Assembly (NCBI GenBank): GCA_902727925.1
Contig: CACVAW010000005.1
Coordinates: 1 to 47,422 of the forward strand
Direction of reading: 5' to 3'
Source of the DNA: an uncultured Campylobacterales bacterium
Lineage (GTDB): Bacteria > Campylobacterota > Campylobacteria > Campylobacterales > CACVAW01
DNA length: 47,422 bases
Below, piece by piece: positions 464-31,334 of this stretch; position 1 is the first letter of the stretch; the number at the start of each line of letters is the position of its first letter. The notes beneath the pieces are model-generated. The model did no database searches, had not been told where the DNA came from, and saw only the letters and a program-made list of their open reading frames with translations. Position numbers and translations under genes: made by a program.

Positions 464-530
464 TAAGAGTGACAAGTCACAAGAGCAGTGTGCTAAGCAC
501 AGCAAAGAAAGGAATTTATTTCCTCTTTGC
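464..530 (+). promoter_or_regulatory. Three-hairpin structured element, copy A, leader of trpS
   Basis: Seen directly: GTGACAAGTCAC (469-480) folds as GTGA/TCAC around CAAG; TGTGC-TAA-GCACA (489-501) is a second hairpin; GCAAAGA (502-508) pairs with TCTTTGC (524-530) and encloses GGAA-TTTAT-TTCC (511-523). The third stem hides a Shine-Dalgarno-like AAGGAA. A second copy with different stem bases but the same pairing lies at 29845-29910 before atpD. Both copies point the same way as the downstream gene and end within about 30 nt of its start codon. Whether it is a cis-regulatory leader or a dispersed palindromic repeat cannot be decided from two copies. No T-run follows, so it is not a standard intrinsic terminator of nadE. 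Confidence 0.6.
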
Positions 531-547
531 ATATAAAAAGGAATTTT

Positions 548-29844: not shown

Positions 29845-29910
29845 TAAGAGCGACAAGTCGCGAGAGCCGTCTGCTTAAGACAGAGTTAAAGGAATTTATT
29901 TCCTTAACTC
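29845..29910 (+). promoter_or_regulatory. Three-hairpin structured element, copy B, between atpG and atpD
   Basis: Seen directly: GCGACAAGTCGC (29850-29861) folds as GCGA/TCGC around CAAG; GTCT-GCTTA-AGAC (29869-29881) is the second hairpin; GAGTTAA (29883-29889) pairs with TTAACTC (29904-29910) around A-GGAA-TTTAT-TTCC. Compared with copy A at 464-530, all three outer stems have changed on both strands while the loop CAAG, the TGCT core and AAGGAATTTATTTCC are kept. The true atpD ribosome-binding site AAAAGGA (29927-29932 region) lies 3' of the element. Its place inside the operon suggests it affects message processing or atpD translation, which is an inference. Confidence 0.6.
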
Positions 29911-29939
29911 AAATAAAAATGTAATAAAAGGAATTATAA

Positions 29940-31334
<1,395 letters not shown>

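Follow-up and report, generated by a model that had tools for sequence, protein, structure and literature searches.

The window analysed here is the whole 47,422-nt stretch of a contig from an uncultured Campylobacterales bacterium. It contains two copies of a structured element, one at 465-530 before trpS (copy A) and one at 29846-29910 before atpD (copy B), with the hairpins in a common order, as the earlier note on this DNA had reported. The features of the two loci are as follows.

465-503, + strand: conserved 39-nt core of copy A (hairpins 1 and 2 with the linker); match to covariance model R1 of 58.1 bits, E 4.2e-16, copy A being in the R1 training set
469-480, + strand: hairpin 1 of copy A, GUGA-CAAG-UCAC; covariation at model pairs 6-15, 7-14, 8-13 and 3-18
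484-494, + strand: predicted pseudoknot of copy A, AGC 484-486 with GCU 492-494 in the hairpin-2 loop; from covariation
488-500, + strand: hairpin 2 of copy A, GUGU-GCUAA-GCAC; from family alignment A5
502-530, + strand: hairpin 3 of copy A, loop UUUAU
531-542, + strand: tail of copy A, ATATAAAAAGGA, with a Shine-Dalgarno-like AAGGA inside; the same tail is found in about half of the copies
548-1510, + strand: trpS, TTG start, downstream of copy A; NCBIfam TIGR00233, 277 bits
29846-29884, + strand: conserved 39-nt core of copy B; R1 match of 59.6 bits, E 1.3e-16, copy B also being in the training set
29850-29861, + strand: hairpin 1 of copy B, GCGA-CAAG-UCGC
29865-29875, + strand: predicted pseudoknot of copy B, AGC 29865-29867 with GCU 29873-29875; from family covariation
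29869-29881, + strand: hairpin 2 of copy B, GUCU-GCUUA-AGAC
29883-29910, + strand: hairpin 3 of copy B, loop UUUAU
29926-29932, + strand: Shine-Dalgarno-like AAAAGGA before atpD
29940-31334, + strand: atpD, downstream of copy B; NCBIfam TIGR01039

The distances to the start codons, 17 nt from copy A to the TTG at 548 and 29 nt from copy B to the ATG at 29940, agree with the earlier description, and two points of that description needed correction. Hairpin 2 of copy A had been given as TGTGC/GCACA, which is in the wrong register relative to copy B; in the family alignment, GUGU-GCUAA-GCAC of copy A (with one U.G pair) matches GUCU-GCUUA-AGAC of copy B. In hairpin 3, the inner GGAA/UUCC, previously considered fixed, is constant in copies A and B only. 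The hairpin-3 stems elsewhere vary with compensation (GAGGGA/TCCCTC, TTTTGAA/TTCAAAA, GAGAGA/TCTCTC and TTGAAGAA/TTCTTCAA), and the constant part of this hairpin is only the loop UUYAY, found in 20 of the 25 copies in the genome. Hairpin 1 of copy A is flanked by AAGA/AAGA purines, at which G.A and A.G pairs are present in most family members.

The genome of 1.5 Mb contains the invariant 15-mer AAGGAATTTATTTCC at exactly two places, and a reversed control does not contain it. A search of the genome with the first half of the element yielded five sites, before trpS, atpD, rplL, a DHH-like gene and bioB. Model R1, which represents the first two hairpins, identifies 25 good copies down to an E value of 0.003; 20 strong copies other than A and B lie outside its training set. 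Most of the copies follow a common plan that consists of AAAAG, hairpin 1, the linker (G)AGC, hairpin 2 with the loop GCUGA, hairpin 3 with the loop UUYAY and a tail, CGTATAAAAAGGA, which stops shortly before the start codon. The genome searches, together with the covariation described below, exclude a chance origin of these copies. Twenty-four of the 25 precede a start codon in the sense orientation (p 7.7e-7 if both orientations were equally likely), where orientation was called by simple ORF finding and the count was raised from 23 to 24 by eye for the bioB copy, which is overlapped by a spurious ORF. The sole exception is an antisense copy that abuts the 3' end of RNase P RNA; because this copy carries the same tail, TATAAAAAGG, the tail is part of the repeat. 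For about half of the downstream genes, the tail provides the Shine-Dalgarno-like sequence. This sequence is included in hairpin 3 solely at bioB and the DHH gene; in most copies it is found beyond that hairpin. The downstream genes include rplL, rpsG, fusA, atpD, porD, porA, recA, a nifU-like gene, trpS, argB, thrC, pdxJ, fabG, hisG, bioB and two genes for peptidylprolyl isomerases. These are often located within operons, and many are expected to be highly expressed; they share no pathway.

Two arrangements of copies stand out. Before pdxJ (G000, contig C43:12493-12746; L041, L048 and L053), there are three tandem copies with differing stems. After each of them, the beginning of pdxJ is repeated (ATGTCAATAAA), which gives the impression that every insertion brought a duplication of the gene start. 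On contig C7 (L059), a weak copy is located between 60-bp near-identical direct repeats that cover the end of a reading frame (...YVDAVYASMGKGQTGGFEF), possibly a duplication of the gene end.

The conserved part of the family is a 39-nt core that comprises two covarying hairpins and a covarying three-pair pseudoknot; the third hairpin and the tail that follow the core are lineage-specific. Corrected mutual information, computed over 109 distinct 39-nt cores drawn from many genomes, is highest for the pairs 7-14, 24-36, 8-13, 6-15, 27-33 and 26-34, and pair 3-18, where a change from G.A to A-U extends hairpin 1, is also among the top pairs. In alignment A5 (120 rows), 98.5% of the cells are paired, and there are 194 double-change cells compared to 46 after shuffling and at most 36 with the partners slid, in an alignment that was fitted to the model of hairpins 1 and 2 and thus favours these two helices. 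The pseudoknot pairs were absent from that model. The linker AGC and the hairpin-2 loop GCU covary (A-U to G-C) in 12 double-change cells compared to 2.1 after shuffling, a value reached in none of the 500 shuffles. This covariation predicts a compact H-type pseudoknot within the core that the earlier note had overlooked. The proposal in that note that selection acts on the structure is borne out by the strong covariation of paired bases across the family alignment. On the sense strand, there are 20 G.U pairs compared to 6 A.C mismatches (p 0.009, an optimistic value given that the cells come from related sequences), and this excess points to the sense strand as the strand that folds.

Two further structural ideas were dropped: pairing of a GUGA linker with the hairpin-3 loop UUCAC, for which the association judged by eye is weak, and a hammerhead or other ribozyme suggested by a CUGANGA-like string in the hairpin-2 loop, which is not conserved across copies. 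In G041, G051, G149 and G001, hairpin 2 is followed by a small motif, AGYGUUARCGUAG, in which U-A changes to C-G together (GUGUUAACG / GCGUUAGCG); this motif is likely to form an extra mini-hairpin, which is absent from the genome under study.

Of 299 genomes sampled from the order, 99 are matched by the refined model; the matches fall in 30 of the 81 genera and include Sulfurovum, Sulfurovaceae, Sulfuricurvum, Nitratifractor and several Campylobacteraceae MAGs; the copy counts per genome are lower bounds, with 22 candidates scored. Matches outside Campylobacterota resemble chance matches in coding-like sequence. No relatives were detected in the plasmids and phages searched, and the viral contigs searched gave one chance match in coding-like sequence and no true relative. 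The earlier note did not recognise the element as a known RNA class, and Rfam 15 indeed has no match for it: none in the window at the curated gathering score, the best result at copy A having an E value of 4.1 with scores far under the threshold, and none down to the permissive limit of E<=1 when 16 other loci with diverse copies were searched. In the open-access literature on repeats or structured RNA of Campylobacterota, Sulfurovum or Sulfurospirillum, only a survey of REP elements (PMC3733652) touches on the subject. The repeat family thus appears to be uncatalogued and order-wide.

Comparison with relatives indicates that the element arrived at both window loci within this lineage. The core is absent at 29 atpD and 18 trpS loci of relatives, and the atpG-atpD spacer is 146 nt in this genome versus 9-26 nt (median 14 nt) in 17 relatives. 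The long spacer and the coreless loci of the relatives together identify both window copies, on comparative grounds, as lineage-specific additions.

In other genomes, the copies are not confined to leaders. Seven genomes, pooled, contain 69 sense and 60 antisense copies relative to the downstream gene (p 0.48), with orientation again called by simple ORF finding, and the sense share of 69/129 differs from the 24/25 found here (Fisher p 2.6e-5). The genomes with both orientations include G034 (about 90 copies), G232 and G184. In these other genomes, the copies adjoin protein, tRNA and RNase P genes, and some are arranged in tandem at constant intervals (96, 75, 90 and 92 bp). In several species, antisense copies are located 5-15 bp after tRNA 3' ends; copies at such a distance within tRNA clusters, mostly antisense, were noted at L131, L136, L153, L158, L165, L169, L173 and L189. 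At L138 (1749-1931), a core copy lies between the purD RNA motif (RF01069) and a gene for a 434-aa protein, and L164 is similar. Other lineages also appear to be of the leader type, namely G001, with 7/7 informative copies, and G027/G057, with a copy at infA. The earlier note had left the choice between a translational leader and a family of dispersed palindromic repeats. The presence of copies in both orientations relative to genes speaks against a leader as the primary nature of the element and, with the insertion behaviour seen elsewhere, better supports the repeat; the leader position is nevertheless borne out in this genome.

Several observations link the family to mobility. In particular, G149 has a 142-bp copy upstream of glmS, and in G282, which is 93-94% identical, the site is contiguous except for the absence of this copy; the junction of the empty site is ambiguous by 2-4 bp, and most other congeners have only a short gap there. 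The repeat unit is 75-150 bp across genomes and, judged by eye, has no coding capacity. The unit of genus g20 measures about 140-150 bp and is bounded by terminal inverted repeats TAGASTTCTTGCAA, and part of the G034 copies carry the inverted ends GAACCCTCTGATTAA; terminal inverted repeats are found in 0 of the 25 copies of the genome under study. The family shows traits of MITEs, being small, folded, present in many copies and polymorphic for presence and absence. Direct repeats of 11-26 bp flank a few copies: on G034 contig C42 (L073, at about 1973), a copy lies between perfect direct repeats of 26 bp, which include the start of the downstream gene (MSEKVCNFC...), and in the present genome such repeats at bioB, the DHH gene and pdxJ are no more than suggestive (overall permutation p 0.06). 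A universal flanking duplication was rejected, as it is clear at few loci only. The scattering in both orientations, the arrays and the empty site indicate that the element behaves as a mobile, non-autonomous repeat; the demonstration comes from another family of the order, the present genome being one with no close relative in the set.

Mobilisation of the RAYT or IS200 type was also considered and rejected: transposases are present in some hosts, and the core does not flank any of the ones that were inspected. Specifically, this holds for 10 Y1 transposase loci from four relatives, and the Y1 transposase of the present genome has no core nearby except the recA leader about 1.8 kb away. Among the listed matches to the element-end pattern in G034, G149 and G193, no pair was recognised that flanks a transposase, and neither a GTAG nor a CGTC tag is found at the end of the core.

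Taken together, these data make it likely, in our assessment, that the element is a MITE-like mobile repeat with a pseudoknotted core that has been exapted as a 5' leader in this lineage. The fold would be kept because mobilisation needs it, the core being recognised by machinery that acts on folded single-stranded DNA or RNA. The version in this lineage would end in a usable ribosome-binding site, with the AU-rich tail containing AAGG(A) serving the downstream gene, so that a sense insertion just before a start codon would replace the native leader instead of killing the gene, and the inserted copies would persist as folded 5' leaders. Such a portable leader would keep translation going after insertion and might also set mRNA stability or initiation. 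The leader role was probably acquired in this lineage and in two others, judging from the placement of the copies; we infer the switch to leader use from a comparison between hosts of different families, those with random orientation and the genome under study. A genuine regulatory role is possible, with sense-only placement and the strand-specific fold in its favour and the unrelated targets and the absence from orthologues against it.

The same placement could mean that the element is primarily a cis-regulatory RNA, a translational operator or a riboswitch-like structure that coordinates trpS, atpD, rplL, rpsG, fusA, recA and others through a protein or ligand, in which case the foreign copies would be mobile relatives or degenerate descendants. 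This explanation is compatible with the nearly exclusive sense position upstream of start codons, with the many targets that serve translation or energy functions and are presumably expressed at a high level, with the pseudoknot and the purine-rich extension of the helix, both characteristic of folded RNA, with the excess of G.U over A.C on the sense strand and with the further leader-type lineages (G001 and G027/G057). However, bioB, pdxJ, argB, thrC, porA, recA and fusA belong to no common pathway, the Shine-Dalgarno sequence is outside hairpin 3 except at bioB and the DHH gene, the orthologous trpS and atpD of relatives lack the element, and both orientations occur in other genomes. Riboswitches are expected upstream of functionally related genes, and here the copies are sense but the target functions are unrelated; the element is probably not a classical riboswitch-like leader, and regulation as its primary nature seems unlikely. 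Conversely, the structure might matter at the DNA level only, as folded single-stranded DNA that serves as a transposase or recombinase substrate (cf. REPs/RAYTs and IS200/IS605), with a functionless mRNA structure and a leader bias that reflects tolerated insertions in a compact genome. The compensatory stems, palindromic ends, random orientation, tandem arrays and empty site would fit, and an operon-rich genome would keep only those insertions that bring a ribosome-binding site. Under such survivor bias, however, antisense copies should also persist at the 3' ends of genes and between convergent genes, as they do in G034, whereas only 1 of 25 is of this type here; the G.U excess favours a strand-specific fold (although single-stranded DNA would show the same), and no RAYT is flanked by the core. 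We therefore regard a purely DNA-level role as quite improbable.

A transcription terminator or 3'-end processing module is suggested by the GCTTTT that follows hairpin 1 when the element is read antisense, by the many copies that immediately follow tRNA, RNase P or coding genes and, in particular, by the antisense copies just past tRNA 3' ends in several species and abutting RNase P RNA here. Nevertheless, nearly all copies in this genome are leaders, where termination would harm, the T run is short and often broken, and orientation is mixed in most genomes, which makes this function highly implausible. A more far-reaching proposal is that the core is a new pseudoknotted class of functional RNA that drives its own dispersal and is at the same time the standard leader of highly expressed operon genes in several lineages. 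The core would then be recognised as RNA or folded single-stranded DNA and would insert around start codons and the 3' ends of stable RNAs. We hold this combination to be a tentative possibility; if true, a mobile element would be distributing a 5' UTR that is both portable and selectable.

The exapted mobile repeat, which we prefer, provides a natural before-and-after comparison, being scattered in both orientations in some genomes and located almost entirely in gene leaders in others. The question of how selfish repeats become regulatory 5' UTRs is thereby made testable by genome comparison and reporters. Within the same bacterial group, the purD RNA motif (RF01069) is a structured RNA that adjoins a copy in L138; it is a separate Rfam family, and the present element has no match to RF01069.

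Among the repeats of other bacteria, we know of no pseudoknotted core in the BOX elements of Streptococcus pneumoniae. The present family resembles BOX in consisting of small, dispersed, intergenic and strongly folded repeats (PMC3049150). BOX elements become part of neighbouring transcripts as 5' or 3' extensions and can alter the expression of neighbours, but they reside in an unrelated host, have a modular A/B/C organisation and are not restricted to sense leaders (PMC3049150). The Correia/NEMIS elements of Neisseria, which are mobile, yield structured transcripts and can control neighbouring genes, are similar to the g20 version in their size of 100-150 bp and their terminal inverted repeats with TA ends (PMC2649163, PMC2229807). 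The Correia transcript is dominated by the stem of the terminal inverted repeats, a target of RNase III, whereas the conserved part of the present family is an internal core (PMC2649163, PMC2229807). Unlike in Correia, the ends of the present repeat change between lineages, and the version in the genome under study has no terminal inverted repeats. The REP/GTAG palindromes associated with RAYT transposases are likewise dispersed palindromes in many copies, and the survey that describes them lists a Sulfurovum genome among those with GTAG and CGTC repeats (PMC3733652). The present element appears to differ from such REPs in having two hairpins and a predicted pseudoknot in place of a single palindrome, with neither a GTAG nor a CGTC tag seen at the end of its core and no core flanking the Y1 transposase loci examined. 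The present family adds to Campylobacterota an apparently uncatalogued, order-wide repeat with a covariation-supported pseudoknot.
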